Notes under the pieces: generated by a model | Databases searched by the model: none | What the model was told of the DNA's origin: nothing | Seen by the model: the letters and a program-made list of their open reading frames with translations, nothing else | DNA from: Candidatus Altimarinota bacterium | GTDB lineage: Bacteria; Patescibacteriota; Gracilibacteria; UBA4473 | Assembly: GCA_020631075.1 (NCBI GenBank) | Contig: JAHDHX010000003.1 | Coordinates: forward strand, 62,001 to 126,000 | Length of the DNA stretch: 64,000 nt | Direction of reading: 5' to 3' | Shown: positions 3,575 to 64,000 of the stretch, piece by piece | Layout: each line of letters begins with the position of its first letter | Numbering within the stretch: position 1 is the first letter of the stretch | Program-made: the position numbers and the translations under genes

Positions 3575-3582
3575 TCGCACCG

Positions 3583-4003: not shown

Positions 4004-4004
4004 C

Positions 4005-35802: not shown

Positions 35803-35817
35803 AGGGGTTTTCAGGGG

Positions 35818-38926: not shown

Positions 38927-38932
38927 TGGCTC

Positions 38933-38945
38933 GGTAGTGTTAACA
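38933..38945 (+). repeat. solo terminal-repeat sequence of the MITE-like elements
   Basis: GGTAGTGTTAACA is identical to the end of the element at 37297. Nothing beyond these 13 bp matches either family and no TA precedes it. It contains the TAA stop of the permuted photolyase gene (complement of 38940-38942). Confidence 0.4.
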
Positions 38946-40058: not shown

Positions 40059-40065
40059 GGGGCAC

Positions 40066-40072
40066 TACTATA
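40066..40072. promoter_or_regulatory. overlapping -10 boxes of divergent photolyase operons
   Basis: On the minus strand TATAGT (complement of 40067-40072) is 8 nt before ATG 40058. On the plus strand TACTAT (40066-40071) is 7 nt before ATG 40079. The two cannot be occupied together. Confidence 0.5.
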
Positions 40073-40078
40073 ACGATG

Positions 40079-45208: not shown

Positions 45209-48200
45209 TTACCAGTTCCATCCGCCGAGCAGGCTGGCGGTGAGGGCTTGGGCGATGCTCCCGAGCCAGTCGCCCCAGCTCTGGGTTTGGGGGGTGTTTT
45301 CGCTGTTGACGGGCTCGGCGTACCACACCCAGCGGTAGGCGATGTCGGTGTCACACGTCATGAGGGTGAGTGGCATGTCGGTGGCGTCACGCAGGGCGCT
45401 GACGGCGGACTCTGGGACGCGGACTTTGTCGTCGATGCGGTACTCGGCAGACTGGCCGTTGACGTCAATGAATATGGTGTCACCGACATTGAGGTCGTCC
45501 ACGAGCTGGGCGAAGATCTGCCCGTAGGGGTTGGGGTCGTCGGCGAACTGGCTGCTGTGGGCGAAGATGTGCATATGGCCGAGGGCCTGTGGCCGTACGT
45601 CCCAGTAGACACCTGCGCCGTGAGTCAAGGTGGGGAGCCAGAGGCTGGAGTGACTCATGGCGGTGCTGTTGACGGGGACGTCCCAGAGGTCGGCGGAGGG
45701 GACAGTGACTTGCACGCCAGTGGGGTAAGCCGTCCGCCCGAGGTCAGTGACCAGCAGGGCTCGTTGCAGCATGGTGGCGGCTTCGCCGATGGTGACTGGT
45801 TGGTCAGTGGCTTGGGTGTCTGTGCTGGGGGGGAGGAGGTGGCGTTGCTGGGCGGCGGCGATGGTGAACGGCTGGGTGCGGGTCTCGCCGTAGACGTCGG
45901 TGATGGACTCTGCCCACCCGAAGGCTTCACCGAGCATGGTGACGGTTTCGGTGAGGCTGAGACTCTGGGAGTAGTTGGCTGTGACGGTGTGACCAGCTCG
46001 GGTCAGCCACTTGGTGAGTGTCTGGCCACTGAGGAGCTGGTCGGCGTCGAGCACGCGAGCTTCGGGGACGCTCACGAGGCCCTGAGTGACGAGCTGGCCC
46101 AAGGCACCGTAGTGCGGGTGGGTGATCTCGACCCGTGGGGTGAGGCTCATGGCTTCGTAGCGGGCTTGCACGGCGGGGGGGATGGGCCCTGTGCGCGGGA
46201 GAATGCTGGTGCGTGACCAGTCGTCGGCCACTCGGGTGGTATTTTCGGGGGCACTGGGGGCGTGGGGAGCCGCCGCGTGGCCGAGCATGGTGTCGAGGGT
46301 GAGCTGGTCGGCGGTGGTGGCGGCTGCCCAGCTGCTGAGGAAGTCGCCATACCCGTCTGTGTCACCTGTGTCTGTGCCCCCAGTGGTGCTGGTTTGGGTG
46401 GTGCCGTCGGTGGCGGTAGTGGTGGCGGTGGTAGTCGGCACATATGGGCCGCCTGTCAGACCACCTGTGGTGGTGGCACTGGCGCTGGTGTCGCCCGCAC
46501 TGGTAGTGGTGCTGCTGGTAGTGCTGCCTGTGCTGCTGGTCGGGACGTATGGTGGGCCTGAGACACTCACGCTGGTGCTGGTGCTGCCACTGCCGCCGTT
46601 ACTACTGGTGCCAGTGTTGCTGCCGCTGCTGGTGCTGCTGTTAGAGTTATTACTGCTGCCGGTCCAGCTGCTGGTGACGGTGCTGACGCTACTCGACCGT
46701 GTGGAGCCGTTGCTGCTGCCACTGCTGGAGCTGCTGTTGCTGGGGTTACTGACGGTGGTGGCGTTCGTGGTCGTGGTCGTGCTAGTAATTGTACTGGTGC
46801 TGGTGCCGCTGTTGGTCACGGTGGGTGAGCCGTCAGTGGGGCCACTGACGGTGCTGGGGACATCGGGGTCGAAGAAGGCAAAGTCGGCGGTGACGTCGTC
46901 GGGGGCGGCTGGGGTGAGAGACACGCTGTAGCCAGTGGAGTCCTGGGCGTGCTCGTCCAGGCCAGCGGTGCCGAGCACTGGGGTCAGGCCCGTGGGGGGG
47001 CTGGTGGTGACGACGTAGGTCTGGTCGACGGGGAGGTCCTCGAAACTGTAGAGGCCGTTGCTGTCAGTGGTGGTGGTGCCGTAGAGGGTGTCGTCAGGGG
47101 TCAGGCCGTTGCCTGTGAGGTCAACCCAGAGCTCGACGGTGTGCCCGCTGATGGGGCTGTCGGTGGAGTCGGGTTGGCCGTTGATCTGCGCGTCGAACCA
47201 GATGTGGTTGCCGATCGAGCCGAGGTCTTCGCCGAAGTTGTTGTCGGGGGAGTGGTCGCCCTCAAAGATGATGATGTTTTGGATGCGGTCGATGTCGGTG
47301 GCGAGGGTGGTTTGGACGGAGCCTTCACCATTTTGGGCTGTGGGGAGGCTGTCGCCTGCGTCTGAACCCGTGGAGTAGTACCCAGGGGGGTTGATCTGGT
47401 AGACATTATAGATGCCTGGGACGAGGTCGTCGAAGAGGTAGTAGCCAGAGGCGTCTGTGAGGGTGGTGGGGGAAGTGATATAGGCGGTGTCGGTGTCGGT
47501 GATGCCGTACTGGGTGACGAAGTCGGCGTAGGCGTCTGGGTAGAGGGTCTGGTCTGGGCCGTAGTAATTACCGTAGACGTCCATCCCTGTGAGGATGAGG
47601 GTCACGCTAGGGATCATACTCTCGCCGCCGTCGATCAGCACGTCGGTGTCTTGGTCATACCAGACATATCCGCTGAGCTGCCCGAGGTCGGTGCTGGCGA
47701 TGATGGGTGTGTCGTGGCTGTCTTGGTTGTCGTCGGTGTATTTCTCTGTGCTGGAGGTCTCGATCGAGACTTCGTTGTGCAAGGTGGTGGGGGCGACGAG
47801 CAGGTCGGTGTTATTGTCGACCAGCACGACGACTTCGATGACGCCGCTGTCCATCGCGGGGACGGTCAGGCCGTTGGTGGCGGTGCCGTCGGCGCTGCAG
47901 CTGACTATACCCGGGGTTGACTGGCTGCACACCCATGGGGTGGCCCCAGTGAGCTGCGTCACGCTGACGAGGGTGACGTGGGCGGGGAGGGTGTCTGTGA
48001 GGATGGTGTCGAGGGCGTCGGCGCTGCCGTCATTGGCGTAGACGATCGTGTAGGTGACCTCACGGCGGAGGTTGGCGGTCAGGTCGCCTGTTTTGGTCAC
48101 GCGGACGTTGGCCACGGGGGGCAACGGGGTGGTGAGGACGTATTCGTTGTCGCTTTGGTCTCTGTCGGTGTCGTCGGTGGCGGTGACGGTGTTGGTCAGG

Positions 48201-51200
48201 CTGTCGCTGCAGGGGGTGGTGGGGTCCATTAGGACTTCGAGCATGATCTGCCCGCTCTCGCCCGCGGACAGTCGCCCGCTGTCGGGGGTGCAGGTGAGGC
48301 TGAGCGGCACGAGGGTGGTGGTGCAGCTGACGGTGTTGCCCAACGTGGTGACACTGGGCGTGATGGCCACGATGCTGGTGATCTGGCTGGGGAGGGTGTC
48401 GGTGATGCTGGCGGTCAGGCTGTCGCTGACGCCGAGGTTGGCGTAGTCGATGGTGTAGGTGAACGTGCTGGTGTAGGGGTTGACGGTGTCGAGGTCGGTG
48501 GTCTTGGTGACTTGGAGGTCGCTGACGCGGGTGAGGTCGATCTCAACACAGCTTTCATTATTACTCATGTCGGGGTCAGGGGTGCCGCCGTCCGCCGCGT
48601 GGGCCACGGGCACCACCAGCCGCCAGAGGTCGGTGAGGTCGCCAGTGGGCTCTTCGCCACTGGCATTCACGATGGCGCAGTTGTTGACTTGCATGACGTC
48701 GTCGATGATGTCGACAGCGACACGGATGGTGAGGGTCTCGACGGCGCCGTCGAGCAGGTCACCCAGTGACCAGACCCCTGTGGCGGGGTCGTAGGTGCCG
48801 ACACTCGGGGTGTCGGTGACATAGAGCAGTCCGACGGCGAGGGGTTCATTGACCACTACGTTTTTGGCGGTTGAGGGGCCGTTGTTGGTCACTGTTAAGG
48901 TGTATTCGACCTCATCACCCTCGGCGACGGTGTCTTCGCTGACGGTTTTGAGTATCGCGAGGTCGGCCTGTGGGGTGATGGTGACGGGGGCGCACATTTC
49001 ATTGTTGTCGGGGTTGGCGTCGATGATGCTGCCAGCGCCGATCAGGGCGCAGTTGGTCACTTCGGTGACATCGTCGACGATGTCACCTTCGGCCACCAGA
49101 GTCAGGATTTGGACGTCGCCTGCGAGCATTGGGCCGACGCTCCACGTGCCTGTGCTGGGGTCGTAGGCCCCTGCGCTGACGGTGTGGCTGTCGTAGGTGA
49201 GCCCGACGGGCAGGACGTCTGTCACCAGTGCACTGGGGTGGTCAGAGGGGCCATTATTGGTCACGATGATGGTGAAGGTCACTTGGTCGCCCTCAACGAT
49301 GACGGTACTGTCGGCGGTTTTGCTGACGGTGAGGTCAGAAGTGAGGCCGATCATGACCTCTTGGCAGGCTTGGTTGTTGTGGGCGTTGGTGTCGGGGGTG
49401 GTGAGGGACTCATTCATAAAGTCAGCACAGTTGGTGGGACTCTCGTCGCCGTTGATGACGTCGGCTTCGACGGTGAGCTGGAGTGTCTCGACCGCGCCTG
49501 CGAGCAGGTCACCGACTGTCCAGACCCCGGTGGCGGGGTCGTAGGTGCCGACGCTGGGCACGTCGCTGGCGTAGGTGAGCCCGAGGGGTAGGGGGTCATT
49601 GACGGTGACGGCGGGCATGGTGCTGGGGCCAGCGTTGCTGACGGTCACGGTGAAGGTGATGAGTTCGCCTTCCTCTGGGGTGGGGTTGTCGACGGTTTTT
49701 TCTATGAGTATGTCGGCGGCGAGTTTGGTTTCGACGGTGCGGCAGAGGGTGTTGTCGGTGTCGTCGGTGTCGGGCACGGGGCTGTCGGTGGGGTCGTACT
49801 GACCACAGTTGGTCAGGGCGGTCATGTCGTCGATGACGTCGACTTCGACGGTGATGTCGAGGGTTTCGAGTTGCTGGTCGAACATGGTGCCGACGGTCCA
49901 GTCACCAGTGACAGGGTCGTAGGCCCCCACACTGGCGGTGTGACTCTGGTAGATCAACCCGACGGGGAGGACGTCCGCCACGGTGACGGCGGGCATGGTG
50001 CTGGGGCCGTGGTTTTTGACGGTGACGGTGAAGGTGATCACGTCCCCTTCGGTGGGCATAACTTGGTCGACGTCTTTGGCGACCTGCACGTTGGCTTCGG
50101 CCGTCACGTCGACGGCGGCGCAGGATTCATTATTATCTAATACTGGGTCAGGCATCTCACCACTTTCGGTGTAGGTGGCGCAGTTTTGGAGGTCGGTGGC
50201 GCCGTCGACGATGTCGGTGACGGTGGTGAGGGTCAGTGTGTGGGTGTCGCCGTCGGCCATCGGCCCGACGGTCCAGACGTTGCTGACGCTGTCGTAGCTG
50301 CCTGCGGTCGGCACCCAGCCAGTGGCAATGAGCCCTGCGGGGAGGGTGTCGGTGACACTCACGCCTGCGCGGTCGGAGGGGCCGTTATTGGTCACGGTGA
50401 TGGTCCAAACGACGTCGTCGCCCTCCACCACGGTGGTGGCGTCTGTGGTTTTGACCACGCTGATGTCTGACTCAGGGGTGAGGGTCACTTCGGCGCAGGG
50501 GTTATTATTGGCGAGGGTGACTTCGGCGATGAGCTCGTCGGAGGTGACCACGGCGCAGTTGGTCGGGGTGAGGTTGCCGTCGACTATGTCGGTGAGGGCG
50601 GTCAGGGTGAGGGTTTCGGTTTGACCGCTGGTCAGGGTCCCCAGTACCCAGACGCCTGTGACTGGGTCGTAGGCACCGACTGTGGCGGTGCTGCTGTCGT
50701 ATGTCAGCCCAGTGGGGAGGACGTCGGTGACGTCGACCCCTGTCAGGGTCGATGGCCCTGCGTTGCTGGCCACGATGGTGAAGGTGACAAGCTGGCCCTC
50801 AACGATGGGGTCGGTGGTGGCGGTCTTGGTCAGGGTGAGGTCGCCGAGGGTGTCGATGACTGTTTCGGCACACGCTTGGTCGTTGGATTCGTCCGTGTCG
50901 GGCACGGTGGAGAGGTTGGTGTAGGTGGCACAGTTTTCGACCACGGTGTTGCCGTCAACTACGTCCGCTTCGCAAGTGATCTCTAACGTCTCTTCGGCGT
51001 CGGCGAGCATGTCACCGATAGTCCAAACCGCTCCGTCATAGGTGCCGACACTGGGGGTGTTGGCTCCGCTGTACACACACCCTGTCGGCAGCACGTCGTC
51101 TATACTCACGGCGGGCATGGTGCTGGGGCCGAAGTTGGTCACGGTCACGAGCCAGGTCATGTCGTCGGCTTCTGTCACTACGGGGGTCAGGCTGGCTTTC

Positions 51201-54200
51201 GCCACTTGCACGTCGGCCTCGGGGGTGATGTCCACCGTGGCGCACTGCATGTTGTCGGTGGGGTCGGTGTCGGGTACGGTCACCCCTGGGGTGTATTCGG
51301 CGCAGTTTTCCAGCGTGGTCTGGCCCGAGACGATGTCTGTCACACAGCTGAGGGTCAGGGTGGCGCTGGTGCCTTCAACCATGTCGCCGAGCAGCCACGT
51401 AACGCCGTCAAATGTCCCTGTGCTGGCGGTGTGAGTGCCGCCGTAGGTGCAGGCCGCTGGCAGTGTGTCTGTCACCACGACGTTCGGCATGGTGCTGGGG
51501 CCGGCATTGCTGACGGTCACGGTCCAGGTGGCGTCTTGGCCCTCGACCACGGTCGGGGTGTCGGTCACTTTTTGCACGGTGATGTTGGCTTCTGGCTCGA
51601 TTGCTACCTCCGCACAGGCCGCGTGGTCGACGAGGTCAACGTCGGGGGTGGTGGATGTGTTGGTGTAGGTGGCGCAGTTTTCGACCACGGTGTTGCCGTC
51701 GACTATGTCGGCGACGCAGGTGATGTCTAGGGTTTCGGTGGCCCCTGCGAGCAGGTCGCCCACGGCCCAGACCGCGCCGTCATAGATGCCGACAGTCGGG
51801 GTGTTGACTCCGCTGTACACACAGCCAGTGGGCAGCACGTCGTCGAGGCTCACGGCGGGGGCCGTCGACGGCCCTGCGTTGCTGACGGTGATCTGCCAGG
51901 TCATGTCGGTGTCATCCGTCACTGTGGGGGTGAGGGCCTGTTTGGCTACACTCACGTCGGCGAGGGTGTCGATGACTGTTTGGGCGCACGCTTGGTCGTT
52001 GGATTCGTCTGTGTCGGGCACGGTTGAGAGGTTGGTGTAGGTGGCACAGTTCTCCACCACGGTGTTGCCGTCGATGACGTCGGCTTCGCAGGTGATCTCT
52101 AACGTCTCTTCGGCGTCGGCGAGCATGTCACCGATAGTCCAAACCGCTCCGTCATAGGTGCCGACACTGGGGGTGTTGGCTCCGCTGTACACACACCCTG
52201 TCGGCAGCACGTCGTCTATACTCACGGCGGGCATGGTGCTGGGGCCGAGGTTGGTCACGGTCACGAGCCAGGTCATGTCGTCGGCTTCTGTCACTGTGGG
52301 GGTCAAGCTGGCTTTCGCCACTTGCACGTCGGCCTCGGGGGTGATGTCCACCGTGGCGCAGCTTTCGTCATTGTCGGTGTTGGTTTCGGGGACGCCTGAC
52401 TGGTTGTCATAGGTGGCGCAGTTTTCGACGAGGGTGTTGCCGCCGACGATGTCGGTGACGGTGGTGATGGTCAAAGTGTGGGTGTCACCTGCGGCCATGG
52501 CGGTGATCATCCAGATGCCGAGGGTGGGGTCATAGAGGCCGTCGGTGGCGCTGTGGCTGACATAGTCTGTACCAGTGGGGAGCATGTCATTGACCACGAC
52601 GGGGGCGGTGTCTGAGGGGCCATTATTGGTGACGACTATCACCCAGTCCATGGTGTCGCCCTCGGTCACGGGGGTGGTGGGCACGGCTGACTTGCTGACG
52701 GCGATGTCTGTTTCTTGGTTTATGGTCACGCTGGCACAGGCGTGGTTGTTGTCGGGGGAGATGTCGGGGACGGTTTGGCTGGCGTTCATGAAGTCGGCAC
52801 AGTTGACGACGGTGAGTTGGTCGTTGACGACGTCGAGCTCGACGGTGATGTCTAACGTGAGGGACTGACCTGCGAGCATGGTGCCGATGACCCAGTCGCC
52901 TGTCAGCGGGTCGTAGGTGCCGCTGCTCTCAGTGTGGCTGACGTAGACAGCCCCAACGGGCAGGACGTCAGTGACGGTCACGCTGTCGATGTCTGAGGGG
53001 CCATTATTGCTGATAGCGATGGTGTAGGTGACCGTGCCGCCCTCCACCACGACGCCGTCGAGCACGCCGTCTGACTCACTGCTGATGACTTTGGTCAGGG
53101 CCATGTCGGTCTGCAGGGTGGTGGTGACATCGCGGCAGGCTTCATTGTTGGACTCGTCGGTGTCAGGCACAGCGGAAGCGTTGGTGAAGGTGGCGCAGTT
53201 GAGCGGCATGGTGTCGCCGTCGACGACGTCGACCTCCACGGTGATCTGTAGTGTTTCGTAGGCTTGGTCGAGCATATCGCCGAGGGTCCAGACCCCTGTG
53301 ACAGGGTCGTAGGCCCCGACAGTGGGGGTGTCGCTGACGTACACAAAGCCACTGGGCAGCAAGTCGTCGATGCTCACGGCGGGCATGGTGCTGGGGCCGT
53401 TGTTTTTGACACTGACGGTGAAGGTGACTTGGTCGCCCTCAATGGGGGTGATGGTGTCGACGTCTTTGGCGACTTCTATGTCGGCCTCTGGGACTATTTC
53501 AATCGTTGCACAGGGGGTGTCGTTGCCGACGCTGGTGTCGGGGACTTCTGATGATCCGCGGTACTCGGCACAGTTGCTGACGGTCGTTGCCCCGTCGACG
53601 ATGTCGGTGAGGGTGGTGATGCTGAGGGTTTCGGACTGCCCTGCGGTCAGGGTGCCCAGCAGCCACTGGCCTGTGGTGTGGTCATAGACCCCTGCACTGG
53701 CGGTGTGGCTCTGGTGGGGGAGCCCTGCGGGGAGGGTGTCCCACACTTCGATGCCTGTCATGGTGCTGGGGCCAGCGTTGGTCACGGTGACGAGCCACGT
53801 GATGGTGCCGTTTTCGACAATGGAGCCGTCGAGTGTGCCGTCACCTTCGGCGACTATGGCCTTGGTGACGCTCAGGTCACCGATGGCCACAATGTTGGCT
53901 TCGGCGCACATGCTGTCGTTGCTGACGCTGGTGTCTGGGATGGAGGAGCCGTTGGTGTATTGGGCACAGTTGCGGAGGTTGGTGTTGCTGTTGATGATGT
54001 CTGTCTCACACGTCACGGTGAGCTCCGCGCTGGCGCCAGCGAGCAGGTCACCGATGGCCCAAACGGCGCCGTCGTAGGTGCCGACCGTGGCGGTGTTGGC
54101 CCCGCTGTAGACACAGCCAGTGGGCAGCACGTCGTCTATGCTCACGGCGGGCATGGTGCTGGGGCCGTCATTGCTGACGGTGACCGTCCACGTGATGTCT

Positions 54201-57200
54201 TCGCCTTCGGTGGGGGTGGGGTTGTCCACGGTTTTGGTCACTTGCACGTCGGCCTGTTGCTCGATGGTGCTGGTGGCGCAGGCTTGGTTGTCTTGACTGT
54301 CGGTGTCGGGCACGGTGCCAGTGGGGACGTACTCTGCACAGTTTTCTAGTACTGTCACGTCGTCGATGACGTCGGTCTGACAGGTGACTGTCAGCATAGC
54401 ACTGCCGCCAGCGAGTAGGTCGCCGATGGCCCAGACGGCGCCGTCGTAGGTGCCGACACTGGCGGTGTGGGCCCCGCTGTACACACAGCCCGTGGGCAGC
54501 ACGTCGTCTATACTCACGGCGGGCATGGTGCTGGGGCCGTCATTGCTGACGGTGACCGTCCATGTGATGTCTTCACCTTCGATCGGGCTGCTGTCATCGA
54601 CGGTTTTGAGGACGGTGATGTTGCCTTCGGGGAGGATGCCGGCGGGGGCGCAGCTCTGGTCGTTGTCGGGGTCGGTGTCGGGCACGGCACCCGCGGAGGT
54701 GAAGGTGGCGCAGTTTTCGATAGTGGTGACCCCAGCGACGATGTCACTGAGGCAGCTGAGGGTCAGGGTGGCGCTGCCGCCTGCGGCGATGTCGCCGACG
54801 GTCCAGACGGTGCCGTCGTAGGCGCCCTGGCTGGCGGTGCTGGTGCCGGTGTAGGTGCAGCCAGTGGGGAGGGTGTCGGTGACGGTCACGGCGGGCATGG
54901 TGCTGGGGCCAGCGTTGGCCACGGTCACCTGCCAGATGATGTCTTGGCCCTCGGTCACGCTGGGGGTGACGGCGGCTTTGATGACGCTTATGTCGGCCTC
55001 AGGGAGGATGTCGATCGGGACACAGGCTTGGTTGTCTGTGAGGATGGTGTCGTCGGGGAGGCCGCTGAGGGTGACGAGGTCGTAGGTGGCACAGTTGGTG
55101 CGGGTGGTGATGTCGTTGGTGATGTCGAGGACACAGCTGAGTGTCAGGGATTCGTTTTGCCCAGCGAGCAGGTCACCCACGGCCCAGACCCCACTGGCGG
55201 GGTCGTAGGTGCCGATACTTTCCAAGTGGGTGGCATACACACACCAGTCAGCCAGCGCGTCGACGATCTCGACATTGGGCATGGTGCTGGGGCCAGTGTT
55301 GCCGACTGTGACGGTGTACTCGACGATTCCGCCCTCGACGAGGGCACCGTCGAGCACGCTGTCGGACTCATTACTGATCGTTTTCCCGACTACGATGTTG
55401 GCTTCGGCTTCAATATTTACCACGGCGCAGCCTTCATTATTGCTGTCGACGGGGTCAGGGGTGGGAGCGGTGTTGGTGAAGGTGGCGCAATTTTCTAGTC
55501 GTGTCTCACCGTCGATGATGTCCATCTCGCAGGTGATGTCGAGGGTTTCGGTGGCGAGGCTGGCCATGTCGCCCACGGCCCAGACTGTGCCGTCGTAGGT
55601 GCCGACACTGGGGGTGTTGGCCCCGCTGTACACACAGCCCGTGGGCAGCACGTCGGTGACGCTCACATTGGGCATGGGGCTGGGGCCGAGGTTGGTGACG
55701 GTGACCGTCCAGGTGATGTCTTCGCCTTCGGTGGGGGCGGCTTCGTTAACACTTTTTTGCACCCAGATGTCCGCCATGGGGCTGATTTCGATCTCGGCGC
55801 AGGGGACGTTATTACTCGGGTCGGTGTCGGGGATGTCTTCGTTTACATTCAAGAAGTCGGCGCAGTTTTCGACGGTGGTTGCACCACCCACCACGGTAGC
55901 AGTGACGATGATGTCTAAGGTTTCGCTCTGCCCTGCGACCAGCGTCCCGACGCTCCACTGGCCAGTGGGGTTGTCGTAGGTGCCAGTGGTGGCAACGTCA
56001 TTAACGTAGACCAAGCCCGCTGGCAGGCCGTCGGTGACGACCACGGCGGGCATGGTGCTGGGGCCGTCATTGCGGACGGTGATGGTGTAGGTGATCTGGT
56101 CGCCTTCAGTCGGGGCGTCGTCACTGACGGTTTTGGTGACGACGATGTCGGCTTCTTGATCGGTGGTGACGTCACGACAGGGCTGGTGGTTGCTGTCGTC
56201 TGGGTCGTTTATGTCGCTGGTGTTATTAAAGTTCGCACAGTTTTCGGGCATGGTGTCACCGTCAACGACGTCGACTTCGACGACTATCTGCAGCTGCTCT
56301 GTTTGCTGGTCAGCGAGGGTGCCGACGGTCCAGACACCTGTCACGGGGTCGTAGGCCCCGACGGTGGGGCTGTCACTGACGTACACAAACCCACTGGGCA
56401 GGAGGTCGATGACTTCGACGCCTGGCATGGGGCTAGGGCCGTCATTTTTGACGGTGAGGGTGAAGGTGATCACGTCACCTTCGGTGGGGTTGGTTTCGTT
56501 AACGTCCTTGGTGAGGATGATGTCTGACTCTTGCTCGACCACGAAAGTGTCGCACTGTTGGTCATTGTCTGGGTTGATGTCTGGGACTGTTTTATTGGGC
56601 ACATATTGGGCACAGTTTTCGTATTTGGTTTGGCCTGCCACCACGGTGGCAAGACAAGTGATGGTGAGGGTTTCGGTCTGGCCGTTGGTCATGTCGCCGA
56701 TGTACCAGAGGCCAGCGCTGTCGCTATAAAACCCTGCTGTTGCGACGTTGCCGGTGTGCACACACCCTGCGGGGAGGGCGTCGCTGACCTGTACGTCAGG
56801 CATGGTGCTGGGGCCGTTATTGGTCGCGGTGATGGTGAAAGTCACGACGTCCCCTTCGGTGTACACTTCGCCGTCGGCGACTTTTGTCACGGCGATGTCG
56901 GCCTGCGGGATGATGTCTATGGTGTCGCAGGCGCGGTTGTTTTCGAGGTCGGTGTCGGGGGTGGCGGCACCGCTGACGTCCGCGGTGGACTGGGTGGCGG
57001 CACAGTTCTCACGCTGGGTGATGTCGTCGATGACGTTGGCTGTCACGGTGATGGTGAGGGTTTCGGTCTGGCCGACGGCCATATCTCCTACATTCCAGAC
57101 GCCTGTGAAGTCGTCATACGCCCCGACGGTGGTGGTGTCACTGACGTATGCCAGCCCCGTGGGGAGCACGTCGCTGACGGTGACGGCGTTGGCGGGTGAG

Positions 57201-59644
57201 GGGCCGTCATTGCTCACCACGATGGTAAACGTCACGGTGTCGCCGTCATTGACGGGGTTTGGTTTTCCGACTTTTGTCACGAACAAGTCGGCTGCGGGGG
57301 TGATCTCTACCGTGGCGCAGCTTTCGTCATTGTCTGGGTTAGGGTCAGGCTGGTCTGGTTTGGCGCCCATGTCGGCACAGTTTTCAACCTTTGTTTGTCC
57401 GTCTATCACCGTTGCTGTGGCGGTAATGGTTAAAGTTTCACTCTGGCCATTGGTCAAGGTGCCGACTGTCCAGACACCTGTCGCGGAGTCATATACGCCT
57501 TGGGTGGGAGTGTCACTGGCGTAGGTCAACCCTGCGGGGAGGCTGTCGGTGACGGTGACATTGGTCGCGGTGGAGGGGCCATTATTGGTCACTGTGATGG
57601 TGAACTCGGCGGTGGAGCCTTCGACCACGGGGGACTCGGTGACGGTTTTGACCACCCCGAGGTCTGCTTCTGACTCTATAGTCACGGGGACACAGCTTTC
57701 GTTGTCTTTGGGCTGGGTGTCGGGCACCCCTGCGGTGCTGCCGTCAGGGCAGCTGCTGACGGTGCCTGACAAGCATTGTTTGTTGCTGTCTTGGCAGGCC
57801 GCGGCACATTCTTTGGTTTCACACCCTGCTTGGCAGACTTCTAGATCCACAGCACATTGCTTCTCACACGCTTCATACGTTGTTTGACATTCAGCGGCAC
57901 AAAGTTTGCTGTCGCAGTTGGCTTGGCACTCTTCAGCAGCGGGGCGACACCCGAGGGTTTCCTCACCGTTACAGTGTGGCTGATACACGGCACAGTTTTC
58001 AAACTTTGTACCTTCGCTGGCGTCGACCGTGCACTGGATCTGCAAAATGGCGCTCTGCCCTGCGGTCATGTCACCGATAGTCCAGAGGTCGGTGGTTTGG
58101 TCATATGCGCCGAGGGTGGCACTGTCGCTGACATACGCACACTGTGGGGGAAGGGCGTCAGTCACGATGACATCGTTCATGGTGCTGGGGCCGTCATTAT
58201 TGACCGTGATGGTGAAGGTGATGGTGTCGCCGTCGGTGGGGTTGGCGTTGGAGACGGTTTTGTTGACGGCGATGTTGGATTCTTCGGGGATGATGGTGAC
58301 GCAGGCTTTGTTGTTGCTGGGGGCGTCGTCAAAGGTGGCGGGGCGGATGCCGTTACCTTGAGCGATTTCATTGGATTGTCCGACGGCACAGTTTTCGATC
58401 TTGGTTTCGCCTGTGCCAATGTCGGGCACGACCACGATGGTCAGGGTTTCGGTCTGCCCATTGGTCATGTCCCCGATGATCCATTCGCCAGTGACTGCGC
58501 TGTAGGTGCCGATGGTCACACTACTGCTGCTGAGTGTCACCCCCGCGGGGAGGAGGTCGTCGACGGTCACAGCCTGGGCGGGGTGGGGGCCGTCATTTGT
58601 CACTTCGATGGTGTAGGTGACGGCCTGGCCCACATAGGGGGTGGGGTCATCGACTTTTTTGGTCACTTGGACGTCAGCGTAGTTTTGCTCGACCACTACG
58701 ATCGAGGCTGGTTCGCTGGTGTGGTTTGACTCACTGTTACAATAGTTGTCCTCTTGGATGGCTATGCCTGCGGCGGTGGCGGTGTTGGAGCATTCGCGCA
58801 CCCAACCACCGTCCCCACCGTCGAGTTGGTCTTTTTTACTGTTGAAGTGGGGGGGGGCGACGTAGGTGTTGGCGTAGTTGTAGGTGTAACAACCATTTTG
58901 CACGCCATACACATTGTCGGGGGTTTTGATGGCTTCGTATTGGATGAGGTGGCCACTGTTGTCGGCGACGCTGCCTGCGGCGCCTGCGTTCAGAGCCATG
59001 TATCCGACGACTTCCGTTGTGGGGATGGCACAGGACCCGACTTCGCTCCGTTGCATGGCGAAGAGAAAGCTACCAGTACCAGTGTTGTAGGTTTCTTCGG
59101 TGATCCAGGTACAGCTGGTTTGCCCTGGGGGGTTGATCTCACTGTTTTGGCTCTGGAAGCTCGCGACCAAGGATGGTGGTGTCGCGTATGTGCCTGCGAA
59201 GGGCACGGTGTCCCAAGCTTCTGTGCCGCTGACACAGACGCCGTGCTGGACGGCGTCGGTCTTAAAGAGGCCGACTTCCAGGGTGTCGCCCCCTGCGAGT
59301 GTATGCAGGCCTGGCTCAGCGGCGATGAAGTCAAAAGTCATCGCGCCGCAGGCTCCGTCCTGATTGTCGGACTCACGGATGGTGGCCTCGAAGCTCGTCG
59401 TGGTCACATTCCCGATCCTGATGTGGGCGGTGTCTGTGTTTTGCAGGTTGGACAACCCGACCACCACGGGGGTGGTGGCAAAGGGGGTCTCGAACTCCAC
59501 CGTCATGGGGGTGCCACAGCTGGCAATGGTGGCTTGGCCTGCCTCCAGCGGGACAGCCCCAGCTGTCTGGGCCAGGCCCAGCGCGAGCCCAAGGTGAAGA
59601 ATTACGCCCCCCATCACACTGAAGACAACACGTTTGATCGACAT
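45209..59644 (-). CDS. giant DUF11 surface protein with LPRTG motif, SLH-like repeats and fused C-terminal sortase
   Basis: A 4811-aa protein. Order: signal peptide 1-30; H-type-lectin-like strands about 31-180; then from about 318 to 3950 some 28 DUF11 modules of about 120-130 aa, 26 of them with an N-x-GPS/GPH motif. A Cys-rich insert (15 Cys in ~95 residues) lies at about 555-650 between modules 2 and 3. Two SdrD-B-like modules follow (from about 3985 and 4143), a Ser/Thr/Asn/Gly linker (about 4265-4400), LPRTG at 4482-4486, two SLH-like repeats (about 4505-4660) and a sortase domain with H4696, C4764 (LTLMTCDTD) and R4771 (YRWVWYAE). No C-terminal membrane span follows the LPRTG as in ordinary substrates. 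Each DUF11 module has a conserved Cys pair (ENCA ... C). It is probably a long surface fibre with its own transpeptidase; activity is inferred. TACAAT lies about 23 nt upstream. Confidence 0.85.
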   Translation of the reverse strand: MSIKRVVFSVMGGVILHLGLALGLAQTAGAVPLEAGQATIASCGTPMTVEFETPFATTPVVVGLSNLQNTDTAHIRIGNVTTTSFEATIRESDNQDGACGAMTFDFIAAEPGLHTLAGGDTLEVGLFKTDAVQHGVCVSGTEAWDTVPFAGTYATPPSLVASFQSQNSEINPPGQTSCTWITEETYNTGTGSFLFAMQRSEVGSCAIPTTEVVGYMALNAGAAGSVADNSGHLIQYEAIKTPDNVYGVQNGCYTYNYANTYVAPPHFNSKKDQLDGGDGGWVRECSNTATAAGIAIQEDNYCNSESNHTSEPASIVVVEQNYADVQVTKKVDDPTPYVGQAVTYTIEVTNDGPHPAQAVTVDDLLPAGVTLSSSSVTIGTYSAVTGEWIIGDMTNGQTETLTIVVVPDIGTGETKIENCAVGQSNEIAQGNGIRPATFDDAPSNNKACVTIIPEESNIAVNKTVSNANPTDGDTITFTITVNNDGPSTMNDVIVTDALPPQCAYVSDSATLGAYDQTTDLWTIGDMTAGQSAILQIQCTVDASEGTKFENCAVYQPHCNGEETLGCRPAAEECQANCDSKLCAAECQTTYEACEKQCAVDLEVCQAGCETKECAAACQDSNKQCLSGTVSSCPDGSTAGVPDTQPKDNESCVPVTIESEADLGVVKTVTESPVVEGSTAEFTITVTNNGPSTATNVTVTDSLPAGLTYASDTPTQGVYDSATGVWTVGTLTNGQSETLTITATATVIDGQTKVENCADMGAKPDQPDPNPDNDESCATVEITPAADLFVTKVGKPNPVNDGDTVTFTIVVSNDGPSPANAVTVSDVLPTGLAYVSDTTTVGAYDDFTGVWNVGDMAVGQTETLTITVTANVIDDITQRENCAATQSTADVSGAATPDTDLENNRACDTIDIIPQADIAVTKVADGEVYTEGDVVTFTITATNNGPSTMPDVQVSDALPAGCVHTGNVATAGFYSDSAGLWYIGDMTNGQTETLTITCLATVVAGQTKYENCAQYVPNKTVPDINPDNDQQCDTFVVEQESDIILTKDVNETNPTEGDVITFTLTVKNDGPSPMPGVEVIDLLPSGFVYVSDSPTVGAYDPVTGVWTVGTLADQQTEQLQIVVEVDVVDGDTMPENCANFNNTSDINDPDDSNHQPCRDVTTDQEADIVVTKTVSDDAPTEGDQITYTITVRNDGPSTMPAVVVTDGLPAGLVYVNDVATTGTYDNPTGQWSVGTLVAGQSETLDIIVTATVVGGATTVENCADFLNVNEDIPDTDPSNNVPCAEIEISPMADIWVQKSVNEAAPTEGEDITWTVTVTNLGPSPMPNVSVTDVLPTGCVYSGANTPSVGTYDGTVWAVGDMASLATETLDITCEMDIIDGETRLENCATFTNTAPTPDPVDSNNEGCAVVNIEAEANIVVGKTISNESDSVLDGALVEGGIVEYTVTVGNTGPSTMPNVEIVDALADWCVYATHLESIGTYDPASGVWAVGDLLAGQNESLTLSCVLDITNDITTRTNCATYDLVTLSGLPDDTILTDNQACVPIDILPEADISVIKAAVTPSVTEGQDIIWQVTVANAGPSTMPAVTVTDTLPTGCTYTGTSTASQGAYDGTVWTVGDIAAGGSATLTLSCLSDIVAGVTTIENCATFTSAGAVPDTDPDNDQSCAPAGILPEGNITVLKTVDDSSPIEGEDITWTVTVSNDGPSTMPAVSIDDVLPTGCVYSGAHTASVGTYDGAVWAIGDLLAGGSAMLTVTCQTDVIDDVTVLENCAEYVPTGTVPDTDSQDNQACATSTIEQQADVQVTKTVDNPTPTEGEDITWTVTVSNDGPSTMPAVSIDDVLPTGCVYSGANTATVGTYDGAVWAIGDLLAGASAELTVTCETDIINSNTNLRNCAQYTNGSSIPDTSVSNDSMCAEANIVAIGDLSVTKAIVAEGDGTLDGSIVENGTITWLVTVTNAGPSTMTGIEVWDTLPAGLPHQSHTASAGVYDHTTGQWLLGTLTAGQSETLSITTLTDIVDGATTVSNCAEYRGSSEVPDTSVGNDTPCATIEIVPEADIEVAKDVDTITPIEGDQVTFTVSVKNNGPSTMPAVSIDDLLPSGFVYVSDTPTVGAYDPVTGVWTLGDMLDQAYETLQITVEVDVVDGDTMPLNCATFTNASAVPDTDESNNEACRDVTTTLQTDMALTKVISSESDGVLDGVVVEGGTVTYTIAISNNGPSDIDSVTVTDVLPVGAVYVSHTESSGTYDPLTGDWVIGTMLAGQSLTLDITVELDVVNDQLTVVNCADFMNASQTVPDISPDNNHACASVTINQETDIAVSKSAVPTTPVTEGDTMDWVIVVTNNGPSDTAPVVVNDMLPTGTDYVSHSATDGLYDPTLGIWMITAMAAGDTHTLTITTVTDIVGGNTLVENCATYDNQSGVPETNTDNDESCATVDITPEADVQVAKASLTPTVTEADDMTWLVTVTNLGPSTMPAVSIDDVLPTGCVYSGANTPSVGTYDGAVWTIGDMLADAEETLEITCEADVIDGNTVVENCATYTNLSTVPDTDESNDQACAQTVIDTLADVSVAKQALTPTVTDDTDMTWQITVSNAGPSTAPAVSLDDVLPTGCVYSGVNTPTVGIYDGAVWAVGDLLAGATETLDITCVADIVDGNTVVENCATYTNTSTTPDVDLVDHAACAEVAIEPEANITVQKVTDTPTVVEGQDATWTVTVSNAGPSTMPNVVVTDTLPAACTYGGTHTASTGTFDGVTWLLGDMVEGTSATLTLSCVTDIVSGQTTLENCAEYTPGVTVPDTDPTDNMQCATVDITPEADVQVAKASLTPVVTEADDMTWLVTVTNFGPSTMPAVSIDDVLPTGCVYSGANTPSVGTYDGAVWTIGDMLADAEETLEITCEADVVDGNTVVENCATYTNLSTVPDTDESNDQACAETVIDTLGDLTLTKTATTDPIVEGQLVTFTIVASNAGPSTLTGVDVTDVLPTGLTYDSSTATVGAYDPVTGVWVLGTLTSGQTETLTLTALTDIVDGNLTPTNCAVVTSDELIAEVTLANNNPCAEVTLTPESDISVVKTTDATTVVEGDDVVWTITVTNNGPSDRAGVSVTDTLPAGLIATGWVPTAGSYDSVSNVWTVGPMADGDTHTLTLTTVTDIVDGATDLQNCATYTESGEMPDPVLDNNESCAAVDVTAEANVQVAKDVDQVMPTEGDVITFTVTVKNHGPSTMPAVTVADVLPVGLIYQSHTASVGAYDPVTGDWTVGTMFDQQLETLDITVEVDVIDDMTALTNCGQYDPTDSPVPDTDDTDNTLCRTVETKLAADILIEKTVDNPTPEEGELITFTVTVSNAGPSTMPAVTVNDPLPLGLTYASDVPSVGTYDPATGVWTVGDLLAGAVETLQLTVEADVINGDESPTNCADFMNESLTTPDTNAHNNQACQEVMIGLTSDLTVSKTADSTVIVEGDQVTFTIIVTNNGPSDHPSALVTDVLPVGLTYDSHTVSAGAYDPSTGTWSVGPMLAGDVQILTLVAEGDIVDDVTEVTNCALIGAGSIIDANPDNNEMCAPVTITPQADLAILKTVSEDTVAEGDEVEYTLTVTNNGPSTAKNVVVNEPLAVGLLYVTDTPSVGTYDPATGVWSLGDLLDGAVETLTIRVAVDIIDDVMQVNNCAIVNASGEEPTGDLTDLWRLVVPVAHAADGGTPDPDMSNNESCVEIDLTRVSDLQVTKTTDLDTVNPYTSTFTYTIDYANLGVSDSLTASITDTLPSQITSIVAITPSVTTLGNTVSCTTTLVPLSLTCTPDSGRLSAGESGQIMLEVLMDPTTPCSDSLTNTVTATDDTDRDQSDNEYVLTTPLPPVANVRVTKTGDLTANLRREVTYTIVYANDGSADALDTILTDTLPAHVTLVSVTQLTGATPWVCSQSTPGIVSCSADGTATNGLTVPAMDSGVIEVVVLVDNNTDLLVAPTTLHNEVSIETSSTEKYTDDNQDSHDTPIIASTDLGQLSGYVWYDQDTDVLIDGGESMIPSVTLILTGMDVYGNYYGPDQTLYPDAYADFVTQYGITDTDTAYITSPTTLTDASGYYLFDDLVPGIYNVYQINPPGYYSTGSDAGDSLPTAQNGEGSVQTTLATDIDRIQNIIIFEGDHSPDNNFGEDLGSIGNHIWFDAQINGQPDSTDSPISGHTVELWVDLTGNGLTPDDTLYGTTTTDSNGLYSFEDLPVDQTYVVTTSPPTGLTPVLGTAGLDEHAQDSTGYSVSLTPAAPDDVTADFAFFDPDVPSTVSGPTDGSPTVTNSGTSTSTITSTTTTTNATTVSNPSNSSSSSGSSNGSTRSSSVSTVTSSWTGSSNNSNSSTSSGSNTGTSSNGGSGSTSTSVSVSGPPYVPTSSTGSTTSSTTTSAGDTSASATTTGGLTGGPYVPTTTATTTATDGTTQTSTTGGTDTGDTDGYGDFLSSWAAATTADQLTLDTMLGHAAAPHAPSAPENTTRVADDWSRTSILPRTGPIPPAVQARYEAMSLTPRVEITHPHYGALGQLVTQGLVSVPEARVLDADQLLSGQTLTKWLTRAGHTVTANYSQSLSLTETVTMLGEAFGWAESITDVYGETRTQPFTIAAAQQRHLLPPSTDTQATDQPVTIGEAATMLQRALLVTDLGRTAYPTGVQVTVPSADLWDVPVNSTAMSHSSLWLPTLTHGAGVYWDVRPQALGHMHIFAHSSQFADDPNPYGQIFAQLVDDLNVGDTIFIDVNGQSAEYRIDDKVRVPESAVSALRDATDMPLTLMTCDTDIAYRWVWYAEPVNSENTPQTQSWGDWLGSIAQALTASLLGGWNW
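50845..51242 (-). repeat. near-identical DUF11 coding repeat, copy 1
   Basis: About 398 bp nearly identical to 51961-52358, offset by exactly 1116 bp (372 codons, three DUF11 modules). This points to a recent in-frame duplication of a three-module block. Confidence 0.8.
51961..52358 (-). repeat. near-identical DUF11 coding repeat, copy 2
   Basis: Partner of 50845-51242 at a distance of 1116 bp, with few substitutions. Confidence 0.8.
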
Positions 59645-59696: not shown

Positions 59697-62600
59697 CTAA
59701 GGCGCATTGCGTAAATCTTCTTGTATTTTTTTGTAAATTAAAACCATGAGTAGTCCGCTCAGGGTCACGGCGCTCAGCACCCAGCGCCACCACCAGAGGT
59801 TTTTCCGCATGAAATAAACGGCGAAGTTGGTTTCAGTGTCGGTCATTTCTGGGCGCACAACCACCGTTTGGGTTAGGCCCCAGTGCGGTACTATTTCACT
59901 GGCTGATTGGTCGGTTTTCCACAGTGGGTGGTAGGCTTCTGGCAGGGCCAAGAGCAGGCGGTCAGTCTCAGGCGGGTGGGTGAGGTGGAGCTGCTTGCCA
60001 CTGGGGGTGGGGGTTGCGGTGAGGGTAACGGCGGGGTGGGGGGCGGGGCTGCGGAGGACGTCTTGCAGGGGGCCGCCAGTGGCTTCGTCGGCCAGGCGCT
60101 GCACCAGCACCCAGCTGTCGAGGAGGGGCAAGTCACCGTAGCGTTTCATAGTCAGACCGCGCACGGCTGTCTGTGACTCGGTGAAGCGGTTTTGCCGTGA
60201 CCACACCTGCCATTGCACATATTTCGTGCCCGAGGGCACGGTGACAAGTCGTTCGATCTCTGTCCAGGGCCAGGTGTCGCCCTCGGGGGTGTGCTGCAAG
60301 ATGTGGTAGTCAACAAATACGCGGTTTTCGTCCAAAAATATCAACTTGAAGTGTGGGCGGCGGGCAAACTGCGAACGGGCCTCAAACCGTAGCCAGTACT
60401 CGTCACCAGCGGTCACCTCGGCCAGGTCACTCGCGGTGATCGACCACCAGCACGAGCACCCCGCGGTGGTGTCGGCTATGGCTTCTTTTTCGGCGTTTAG
60501 GCGTACCTTGAGGTGGTCTGCGCCCAGGTCGACGCAGTCACAGCAGTCAGCGTTGCGCTCGGTGTCGCCTAAGGTATCTAGGTACCGATGTCGTTCGTAC
60601 CACTCGGCGTCATAGGCAAAAGGATGGAGCGACTCCGTGGACAGGAGGCTTGGGGAGGTGTCGCGGAGTTTGTGCTTCCAGATGGCTCGCCCTGGGAGGA
60701 GGTCGTAGGTGCCAGCGTGCACCATGGGGACGGCACCTGCCTGATGCACTGTGGGCCACTGCGGGGTGGGGAAATCGGCAGCTTGCAGAGCGGGTGACAG
60801 CACGGTGTGCTGCTCGACTGTGCGCTGTCGCCGCCCTGAGCGAAACACTTGGTGCTCGTCGGTGGCGCGGGCGTCTTCACTCATGTCTACGCCGACGTAC
60901 AGGTCATATTGTCCTGCCTCGGTCACGTCTACGCTGGCGGTGACGACCCCGTCGTTGAGCCGTACGCCTTGGCCGTTGGTCAGGGCGCTGCTGCGGCGGC
61001 CTGTCTGGATGTTGCCGCTGTGGTTCATCTCTAAACTTGGTTCAAGAACGGTCAGCCCCCGCGTGCGGGACCGCACCGCCGTGGCTTTCGCTTGGGCGGC
61101 TTGCCAGTCGTCTTCGGGCACGACCAGCACTTCATTGACGGCGTTGAAGCCTTGTACGTTGGTGATGGTCATCTGGCTGAGGCCCAGCGGTGGTGTCACG
61201 GTGCCGAGGTCTTCCCAGTACCATTGGTTTATGTCTGGGCTGCGGGTCAGTGCGGTGGCCGCCCAGCTGCCCAGCCCGAAGTCAACCTGTCCCCCAGCGC
61301 CCGAGTGCCAGACCCGCGCCAGCACACGGTGGGGGCGCTGGCCGTCGGCGGTGATGGGGATTGGGAGCTCATTGGGTACGGTGTGGGTGGCCAGTTGTCG
61401 GACTTCGAGGTCGTGCACCCACCAGTAGACGCGCTGGCTGGGGCGCTGGTGCGTCCAGAGCTGTAACCGCATGGTGCGAGCGGCGGCGGGGGTGATGAAA
61501 CTCCCCACAAAGCGCTGCACGTCGAAGCTGGCGGCCGCGTGGGGGGCTGTGACATACGACACGGTCAGTTCTTCACCAGCCTCGTCATAATATTTCACTT
61601 TGCCGTGGAGTCTGTCAGTGCCGTGGCCCGAGACCGTCAACCCAAAGCGATAGCCCATGAGGGGGTCAATGTCGATGGGCTGGCTGGTGACCACTTTCCA
61701 GTACTCCCCTCCCCCTTCGGTGATTTCTCCGCGGAGGTAAGGCAGGGCGTCGTAAACATTGGTCGGGGCGAAGTCGACCTCGATCACTTCGGGGTCATCG
61801 GCCACGAAAAAGTCAGCGTTGGTGCCCAATACATCTTCGGTCTGCAGGACGACTTTGCCGAGGTCGTCGAGTGGGGTGTGGGGAGGCACGTCGAGCGCCA
61901 TGGGGGAAGTGGTGAGGGCGATGCCCCGCCCACTGTCGCCCTGGCCGAGGCTCATCGTCAAACCCTGATGTTGCTGGTGCCAGCGCCAGTCAGGGCTGTT
62001 GACACTGCTCTTGGCCCACCGTGTGAAGGCGTCGGCTTGGTCGGTGTGGTCAAAGGGAGCGTAGCGGTGGCGCCTGTCGACCCAGAGGGTCGGCAGGTCG
62101 CTCGCAAACCGCTCGACCAGCAGGTCGCCCGCTTGCAGGGTGTCGGGGGACGGCACGGTTGACTGTTGGTCAGCCCACCACAGGGCGGTGTTGGTCATGT
62201 CTGACCCTGGGAGGGCTGACAGCACCTGCCCCCCTGCCCACCCCCCCAGTGACAGCACTGCCCGCCCCAGCACCCGCGGCTGGGTGATTTCTGAAATAGT
62301 TTCGCCGACGGCGGTCAGGTCCGCGCCCCACCAGTCACCGTGGCGGGTGACGGCACTCACCCCCAGTTGCCGCCCCAGTCCCCCGAGCATGTCTATGAGC
62401 TGGCTCCCCTGTCCGTAGATGTCACGGTGCAGCACGAGCTCACTCACCCCGAGGCTCCGCCACAGTGGCCCGAGCTGGTCGGTGAGGTTGTACTCCAGCT
62501 GATGCTCTGTCCAGTCGTACCACCGACGCCAGACAGGGGTGGTGCCTTCGGTGGGGTTGTAAGTGTGTCGCGTAGTGGAGTGGATGTCGAGCCCTGCGGT

Positions 62601-64000
62601 GGGGGCAGAGGGGTTCCAGGGGGTGGTGCCGACGGCGGTGTGGGGGGATTGCCAGGCTTCAAACCGTGGGAGGTACCCCACGCGAGTCGCCGCTGGGCGC
62701 CCAGCGGCCCAGTGCGCATAGGGCGCGGGGACGGCCACGGGGGCGTAACCCTGCAGTAAGTATTGTGCGTAGTGCGGAGCCCCCCCGCCCAGCACCGATA
62801 GGACTGTCAGCAAGCCCACGACCCCCTGCACGGCGCGGTGTCGCCGCGGGAGCAGCAGCGTAGTGCCCAGCTTTTGTGCCAGTGGCCGTAATTTCTGCCA
62901 CAGGGCGTGACGCCGTTCACAGACTTGGACCAGTGTCGTGAGGCCACTGCCCAGACAGAGGCTGTAGACTATGAGCACCAGCCCAGAGAGCTTGTCGGGG
63001 TCACGGAAAATAAACCCAATGGCGCCCGCCAACGGCCCGTCAAACACCAGCCAGAGCAGCAGCCCCCGCAATGGCCCCTGCGTGCCCATGCTCAGCCCCA
63101 AGAGCACCACCCCCAGCCCCACCCATGGTCGCAGCCACCGTCGCCAGAGGGCCGTCGCTGCGCCGCTGGCGATCACCACGCCCAGCCAGGCCCAACTGCC
63201 CCCCCACCAGAGGCCCGTGTCTGCGCGAGGCACGTCTGACCACCAGTACCCTGAGACGGTCAGCACCCTGCGCCAGTCACTCATGCGGGAAAAAAGCCCA
63301 ATGGTGTCGACGGTGTTGATGTTTGTCGGGCCTGCGCCTCCACCACTGGCCAACAGCATGGGGAGTAAAAAGTGCAGACTGAGGCCAAGGACCATCCCGC
63401 CCAGGGCGCCCAGCCGCACCCACGCCCACGGCACGGGGGCGTCAGTCGGCCTTCGGTCGACGCTCCGCCAGGCCACCGCCCACGCCAGCACCCCACCGAG
63501 GTAAAACCACCAGTGCACCGCCGCCCCCGCCAGCACCCAGAGCAGCGCCCCCCGCAGCAGGCGGCCGAGGGTTTGGGGGCTCCATATTTCGCGGTTGTCA
63601 GCCCAAAGGGCGCGCTCACACTGATGCAGCACCCACGGCCCCAGTGCCCACCCCGCCAGCAGGTAAATATGCTGCAAACGGTGCACCACCCACGGGTTGT
63701 GGAGGTACACCCCGCCCACCACGGCCAGCACGCCCCAGCGCGTCACCCACGGCAAAGTGGTTTGGGAGTCTTCTGACTGGCGGTGCCCCTGCCACAGGCG
63801 TATGACCCCCACGACCCCGACGGTGCCCAGCCCCCAGACGAGTAATGGGTAGAGTCCCTCCGCCCCCAGCCCCAGCAGCCACCCCACCAGCAGGAGCAGG
63901 GCGACCAGTGGGGCTCGGCTGAGGTTGAAAAAGTTTGGGTTTGACCACAGGTCGTTCCAGAGGGTGAAGGCCCGCTGGCCATAGACTTCGCTGCGGAGCC
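59697..64000 (-). CDS. large GT-C-like membrane glycosyltransferase, partial (AftD-like layout)
   Basis: The frame is open to the window edge: 1433 residues are visible and the N-terminus is missing. The first ~380 residues contain many membrane segments with the Trp/Gly/Leu-rich loops of GT-C enzymes (LWSNPNFFNLS, GPLAGAIGFIFRDPDKLSG). A long extracytoplasmic part follows with several beta-sandwich, carbohydrate-binding-like modules (for example around FGLGSWAAT and HFKLIFLDENRVF). A last membrane span is near the C-terminus (WVLSAVTLSGLLMVLIYK). The layout resembles AftD-type alpha-arabinofuranosyltransferases, which use polyprenyl-phosphate sugars; the sugar is unknown. It ends 52 bp before the giant surface protein gene on the same strand, so it may act in glycosylating surface polymers or that protein. 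Confidence 0.65.
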   Translation of the reverse strand, partial: LRSEVYGQRAFTLWNDLWSNPNFFNLSRAPLVALLLLVGWLLGLGAEGLYPLLVWGLGTVGVVGVIRLWQGHRQSEDSQTTLPWVTRWGVLAVVGGVYLHNPWVVHRLQHIYLLAGWALGPWVLHQCERALWADNREIWSPQTLGRLLRGALLWVLAGAAVHWWFYLGGVLAWAVAWRSVDRRPTDAPVPWAWVRLGALGGMVLGLSLHFLLPMLLASGGGAGPTNINTVDTIGLFSRMSDWRRVLTVSGYWWSDVPRADTGLWWGGSWAWLGVVIASGAATALWRRWLRPWVGLGVVLLGLSMGTQGPLRGLLLWLVFDGPLAGAIGFIFRDPDKLSGLVLIVYSLCLGSGLTTLVQVCERRHALWQKLRPLAQKLGTTLLLPRRHRAVQGVVGLLTVLSVLGGGAPHYAQYLLQGYAPVAVPAPYAHWAAGRPAATRVGYLPRFEAWQSPHTAVGTTPWNPSAPTAGLDIHSTTRHTYNPTEGTTPVWRRWYDWTEHQLEYNLTDQLGPLWRSLGVSELVLHRDIYGQGSQLIDMLGGLGRQLGVSAVTRHGDWWGADLTAVGETISEITQPRVLGRAVLSLGGWAGGQVLSALPGSDMTNTALWWADQQSTVPSPDTLQAGDLLVERFASDLPTLWVDRRHRYAPFDHTDQADAFTRWAKSSVNSPDWRWHQQHQGLTMSLGQGDSGRGIALTTSPMALDVPPHTPLDDLGKVVLQTEDVLGTNADFFVADDPEVIEVDFAPTNVYDALPYLRGEITEGGGEYWKVVTSQPIDIDPLMGYRFGLTVSGHGTDRLHGKVKYYDEAGEELTVSYVTAPHAAASFDVQRFVGSFITPAAARTMRLQLWTHQRPSQRVYWWVHDLEVRQLATHTVPNELPIPITADGQRPHRVLARVWHSGAGGQVDFGLGSWAATALTRSPDINQWYWEDLGTVTPPLGLSQMTITNVQGFNAVNEVLVVPEDDWQAAQAKATAVRSRTRGLTVLEPSLEMNHSGNIQTGRRSSALTNGQGVRLNDGVVTASVDVTEAGQYDLYVGVDMSEDARATDEHQVFRSGRRQRTVEQHTVLSPALQAADFPTPQWPTVHQAGAVPMVHAGTYDLLPGRAIWKHKLRDTSPSLLSTESLHPFAYDAEWYERHRYLDTLGDTERNADCCDCVDLGADHLKVRLNAEKEAIADTTAGCSCWWSITASDLAEVTAGDEYWLRFEARSQFARRPHFKLIFLDENRVFVDYHILQHTPEGDTWPWTEIERLVTVPSGTKYVQWQVWSRQNRFTESQTAVRGLTMKRYGDLPLLDSWVLVQRLADEATGGPLQDVLRSPAPHPAVTLTATPTPSGKQLHLTHPPETDRLLLALPEAYHPLWKTDQSASEIVPHWGLTQTVVVRPEMTDTETNFAVYFMRKNLWWWRWVLSAVTLSGLLMVLIYKKIQEDLRNAP

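Follow-up and report, generated by a model that had tools for sequence, protein, structure and literature searches.

A giant Gracilibacteria surface protein that joins a PxTG motif, SLH-like repeats and a sortase domain in one chain, with a possible self-anchoring role

The window analysed here is a 64,000-nucleotide stretch from a 1.46 Mb genome of an uncultured member of the Gracilibacteria. Its minus strand carries a gene for a 4811-aa surface protein, which is read from ATG to TAA without an internal stop. From the N- to the C-terminus the protein consists of a signal peptide, an H-type lectin-like domain, a DUF11 stalk, two SdrD B-like domains (PF17210; the second copy lies directly N-terminal of residues 4143-4238), a linker, the segment RVADDWSRTSILPRTG, an SLH region, a sortase domain and a short tail (Table 1). 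An alternative genetic code was ruled out as the cause of this arrangement, the window gene and the eight relatives checked all using TAA or TAG stops, and so was an assembly artefact, the identical order being present in ten genes from several genomes.

Table 1. Features of the 4811-aa protein and their positions in the window.
Feature	Position	Strand	Basis
Gene, 4811-aa surface protein	45209..59644	-	Open reading frame, ATG to TAA
Signal peptide, residues 1-30	59555..59644	-	Sequence; AGA/V cut judged by eye
H-type lectin-like domain (weak), residues 48-94	59363..59503	-	PF09458, 27.6 bits (cut-off 24)
DUF11 stalk, at least 28 repeats of about 125 aa, residues about 320-3700	48545..58687	-	PF01345, 28 stretches, 1990 bits
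SdrD B-like domain, residues 4143-4238	46931..47218	-	PF17210, 2 stretches, 60.7 bits
Ser/Thr/Gly-rich linker, residues about 4250-4430	46355..46897	-	Sequence
Extended motif RVADDWSRTSILPRTG, residues 4471-4486	46187..46234	-	Kept in most fused relatives
LPRTG, residues 4482-4486	46187..46201	-	P, T and G invariant in 9/9 distinct fused relatives with catalytic Cys
Degenerate SLH region, residues 4487-4630	45755..46186	-	Homology to relatives with three SLH repeats
Sortase domain, residues 4647-4779	45308..45706	-	PF04203, 45.7-45.8 bits; fold
Catalytic His4696 (AHSSQF)	45557..45559	-	Invariant; aligns with active-site His of solved sortases
Catalytic Cys4764 (LTLMTCDTD)	45353..45355	-	Invariant; aligns with active-site Cys of solved sortases
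Catalytic Arg4771 (YRWVWYAE)	45332..45334	-	Invariant; aligns with active-site Arg of solved sortases

The next genes upstream (window 59697-63998 and beyond; L006:1701-7012) encode a 1488-aa protein that matches nothing in Pfam and whose two ends look hydrophobic by eye, and then a family 2 glycosyltransferase; these genes beside the fibre gene possibly serve surface glycosylation. Elsewhere in the window (37297-41871), three adjacent genes resemble relatives of photolyase/cryptochrome by eye.

A sequence-only reading of the locus had proposed a sortase at the C-terminus, and both the profile and the fold bear this out. The C-terminal piece matches PF04203 at 45.8 bits against a cut-off of 26.6, a match that was seen only when this piece was scanned, as the Pfam scan of the full-length 4811-aa chain misses the sortase. 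In an initial genome search with PF04203 the window's own copy was likewise overlooked, and absence in single-profile searches is therefore not counted as absence. The structural model of the window protein was built from four sequences, in an alignment that came from three loci found in the second of two genome-contig scans for relatives, the first having returned none. The model is poor overall (mean pLDDT 49); among the PDB matches listed, 50 of 50 chains are sortases, with Z up to 9.5, in agreement with the sortase barrel named beforehand as the expected fold. The better model of a relative (L142, pLDDT 62) matches the three-SLH module of Bacillus anthracis Sap with a Z of 17.2, followed by sortases with a Z of 8.9. 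His4696, Cys4764 and Arg4771 lie exactly where the earlier reading had placed a catalytic triad, and by alignment they sit at homologous places of the class C sortase 7cg9. In both models the LPRTG/PxTG motif has a pLDDT of about 25, so that neither places it in the active site.

LPRTG is likewise at the position first given for it, and it is the sole hydrophobic-PxTG in the protein. From the composition of the 4811 residues, 0.20 LPxTG and 0.94 hydrophobic-PxTG motifs would be expected by chance, so that a single LPxTG in so long a sequence is close to chance and would mean little alone. It stands out from chance because every one of the nine distinct fused relatives with an intact catalytic Cys has the motif at the same position. 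The segment upstream, R-x-x-[DN]-[DN]-[LWVY], is also mostly kept across the fused relatives, giving a family form of roughly R-x-x-D-D-L-x5-hydrophobic-P-x-T-G. A bare DNA pattern for PxTG was uninformative, with fewer matches than in the reversed control. The 325 residues that follow LPRTG are not hydrophobic, and the protein has neither the hydrophobic span nor the basic tail expected of an LPXTG sorting signal. The absence of a membrane span after the motif, already noted in the earlier reading, is thus confirmed: apart from the signal peptide (hydrophobic residues about 5-24), the protein has no strongly hydrophobic segment, and the fused sortase, joined as it is to its putative substrate, has no membrane anchor of its own.

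The two SLH-like repeats claimed between motif and enzyme were upheld by alignment, in which they correspond to repeats 1 and 3 of the full three-repeat module of the relatives, the middle one being deleted; they are degenerate, and Pfam SLH (PF00395) found no match in the C-terminal piece of the window protein. The same profile matches six of nine members of set A2. Since the middle repeat is gone, wall binding by the window copy itself may be weak. Pyruvyltransferases are the type of enzyme that makes SLH ligands, and a search for such a gene in the window's genome gave one weak match, barely above the cut-off (26.2 bits).

The order of linker, hydrophobic-PxTG, SLH and sortase recurs at the C-terminus of five proteins of the window's genome and of five in related genomes (Table 2), so that the expectation that homologues would keep the motif ahead of the enzyme holds, in the form PxTG at the same place. 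A search of the window's genome with the C-terminal module gave six close copies, of which five have a surface region or a linker fused to them and bear PxTG, and the sixth (C40) is standalone. Across 353 genomes of the class, close members, set apart by a score gap (126 bits against 73 bits below), were found in six more genomes (G007, G004, G307, G331, G332 and G033), the first five of which, from three families, hold PxTG-bearing fused proteins. The close members form one clade in the tree (98/91), separate from more distant standalone sortases, and the standalone C40 is sister to the fused C7:134480 (95/89). As the fused relatives all belong to one clade, the counts are not independent. 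No relative was found in the viral contigs or the plasmids searched. In 380 sampled genomes of the phylum, searched with the sortase half and with scoring limited to a few top candidates in each genome, only the window's own genome gave a close match; a phylum-wide search with SLH in the query was swamped by SLH-only proteins.

Table 2. Fused proteins and their motifs.
Protein or genome	Motif	Length	Remarks
Window protein	LPRTG	4811 aa	Fused
C8:104830	IPQTG	2732-aa frame	Fused
C8:126490	IPFTG	798 aa	Fused
C7:134480	IPSTG	1709 aa	Fused
C10:18027	WPKTG	492 aa, mostly linker	Fused
G007	YPLTG		Also one standalone copy and one fragment
G004	LPRTG		Fused
G307	IPKTG		DUF11-SLH-sortase in a single chain (Pfam)
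G332	WPRTG		GEVED-SLH-sortase in a single chain (Pfam); near-identical to G331
G331	WPRTG		Near-identical to G332
G033 C17 (L022)	FPQLG		Fused; Ser replaces catalytic Cys

An alignment of nine distinct fused proteins, mostly 25-40% identical, has only ten invariant columns (P4483, T4485, G4486, L4518, W4669, H4696, F4711, G4721, C4764 and R4771), six of which are the motif residues P4483, T4485 and G4486 and the catalytic H4696, C4764 and R4771. In the fused relative of G033, a genome that keeps a conventional housekeeping sortase, the catalytic Cys is replaced by Ser (TTTACTTCT; Phe-Thr-Ser, LFTS) and the motif Thr is gone (CCACAGCTCGGC; Pro-Gln-Leu-Gly, FPQLG); this is the single case of a joint loss. 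A hydrophobic-PxTG ahead of the sortase module is present in 10/10 fused proteins with the Cys, in 0/25 standalone sortases and in 0/56 SLH-only proteins (Fisher 4e-8 and 4e-11, respectively, with kinship ignored and some loci cut by their flanks). This co-conservation, together with the one co-loss, supports the view that the fused enzyme and the motif would work together.

The close family has two standalone members, one in the window's genome (G000 C40) and one in a related genome (G007 C1), which bear on the point of the putative cut. Their AxA signal peptidase sites, judged by eye, fall at the T-G position of the fused proteins: VSA/VTVPDWLRSKY in C40 against T/GATPDWLRERY in C7:134480, and AMA/AYIPSNLRKAY in G007 C1 against T/GYVPEWLREKY in G007 C71. 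Since the standalone proteins start where the fused ones have T-G, the SLH-sortase module appears as a unit, its start set by signal peptidase in the one case and presumably by a T-G cut in the other. On a modest reading, the coinciding start point could be a plain domain boundary.

Conventional sortase anchoring is also represented in these organisms. A membrane-anchored conventional sortase is encoded at C5:83935-84357 of the window's genome, and each of the six further genomes that hold fused proteins has one too. A PF00746 search of the window's genome gave no match above the cut-off, and two candidate conventional sorting signals were found in the about 1.2 Mb scanned. The fused proteins would be a second anchoring mode beside the conventional one, not a replacement for it. 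The first candidate signal belongs to a 1229-aa surface protein with Big_1, DUF11 and fn3 domains (window 32200-35886, minus strand), which ends in TTPDTG, a hydrophobic span and WPRNTEPETLRIKL (RIKL end), its motif beginning with Thr, unlike those of the fused proteins. The second is in a 371-aa protein (C8:144404-145516; L180) with a VPQTG-hydrophobic-RRRR end. The same genome also encodes an 804-aa protein (L182:9499-11910, minus strand) that by eye resembles a membrane-fusion protein and ends in RPATGVPDTGYVPLSAE; here PxTG is followed by YVP, as in the fused motif of G007, at the extreme C-terminus and without SLH or sortase, and it may be due to chance or mark a substrate cut in trans.

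Taking the conserved sequence features together, we consider it rather probable that the fused sortase cuts the PxTG of its own chain or of a sister molecule and moves the fibre to a wall amine, while the SLH-sortase part remains. The cleavage, the acceptor and the action in cis or on a sister are what we infer, in the following sequence. The fibre would first be exported, residues about 31-4485 forming its mature part, and the C-terminal SLH module, degenerate here and complete in relatives, would hold the chain end at the wall. Cys4764, with His4696 and Arg4771, would then cut between Thr4485 and Gly4486 of the same chain or of a neighbouring sister, and, in the usual manner of sortases, the amine that receives the fibre would most likely belong to peptidoglycan. 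The piece from Gly4486 onwards, which has the layout of the standalone SLH-sortase of this genome, would stay behind. The SLH-sortase module would in this way take over the part that the membrane span and the basic tail play in an ordinary sorting signal. The wider proposal of a self-anchoring single chain that makes its own cut, attaches the fibre either to the wall or to the next one along, leaves a wall-bound ligase behind and recognizes the extended R-x-x-D-D-L-x5-hydrophobic-P-x-T-G is more tentative, and we place it a little below an even chance.

The motif might instead be cut in trans by the housekeeping sortase (C5:83935-84357), with the fused enzyme serving another role or other proteins. 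That pathway evidently exists, given the conventional sortases in all seven genomes and the two candidate signals, but neither the membrane span nor the basic tail of its ordinary substrates is present in the fused proteins, their active site is fully conserved wherever the motif is, and G033 lost the motif along with the fused Cys despite its housekeeping sortase; we judge cutting in trans to be unlikely. We are similarly doubtful of a polymerisation in which the Thr of one fibre would be joined to a Lys of another to give pilus-like chains or nets. Class C sortases polymerise pilins covalently and are among the closest sequence and structure matches, the union of substrate and enzyme in a single molecule would fit growth by addition, and cross-links could form among the five fused proteins that this genome encodes; however, class A, D and E sortases match nearly as well, and there are just 55 Lys among the 4811 residues.

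Self-release, in which hydrolysis at T-G would shed the fibre and SLH would hold the uncut form only, seems quite improbable. Sortases do hydrolyse their substrates if an amine is absent, and SLH alone would suffice to hold the uncut protein. Against this stand transpeptidation, the usual reaction of the family, and the peptidoglycan synthesis genes of the genome, where five Mur ligase matches make such synthesis likely. Least probable is that nothing is cut, the PxTG being a fossil or domain-boundary peptide, the sortase dead or ligand-binding and the fibre held by SLH alone, for although such anchoring requires no cut and the G033 protein persists without Cys and motif, drift would not keep P, T, G, H, C and R as six of ten invariant columns at this divergence.

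Sortase anchoring usually involves two proteins, a membrane enzyme finding a membrane-held substrate. With classic LPXTG sorting-signal proteins the fused proteins share a signal peptide, a long repetitive stalk, a Ser/Thr linker, a near-terminal hydrophobic-P-x-T-G and a His-Cys-Arg sortase. They differ in that the motif precedes SLH repeats and then the sortase in one chain, without span or basic tail, in that it often starts with Ile, Trp or Tyr, and in the mostly conserved R-x-x-D-D-L upstream. The three-SLH module of the relatives, which matches solved structures of this kind, and the giant extracellular region are shared with SLH surface proteins such as B. anthracis Sap and P. alvei SpaA, whereas in the fused proteins SLH lies between the PxTG motif and the sortase. 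The standalone SLH-sortases of the same class (370-430 aa) also have a signal peptide and SLH repeats followed by sortase, but neither the fused surface region nor PxTG, and G000 C40 and G007 C1 fall within the fused clade. Many standalone SLH-sortases of this size, with a TCWPPDS-type active-site motif and without PxTG, occur in the f9 and f5 genomes (L089-L110).

Target, LPxTG and sortase are also combined in a single chain in engineered self-cleaving fusions (Mao's method, BISOP and PhaC-SrtA beads), which differ in being artificial, in using Staphylococcus aureus SrtA, in having this sortase N-terminal of the motif and in the lack of SLH. Such LPETG-sortase-target fusions cut themselves in the laboratory, even unintentionally during synthesis, the fused sortase being needed for the T-G cut (PMC2901362, PMC4658790). 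Genome papers on the CPR give sortases as separate enzymes only (PMC4736985, PMC6851277, PMC6744442). In the open-access literature, where absence is weak evidence, no account of a naturally occurring PxTG-SLH-sortase chain was found, nor were 'sortase domain' and 'SLH domain' found together in one paper.

Judged from their sequences, surface fibres of uncultured Gracilibacteria seem to carry a cut-site and a would-be welding enzyme in one chain. By uniting motif, wall-binding module and enzyme, the family points to another solution for sortase anchoring; it is found in bacteria with small genomes, and the large surface proteins of these bacteria may make contact with host cells. The self-processing that it would perform lends itself to direct testing, parallels in nature the self-cleaving tags engineered from sortases and might yield a new ligation tool that recognizes a longer sequence.

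Within the fibre itself, the nucleotide spacing of the DUF11 repeats is 372-378, and two of them (50813-51112 and 51929-52228) are 92% identical across 300 nt, a recent duplication. A Cys conserved in most DUF11 repeats suggests disulfides. At the other end of the chain, a 32-residue tail follows the sortase barrel (45212-45307, minus strand; ending SWGDWLGSIAQALTASLLGGWNW); it is hydrophobic and helix-like, is missing in most relatives and possibly touches the membrane.
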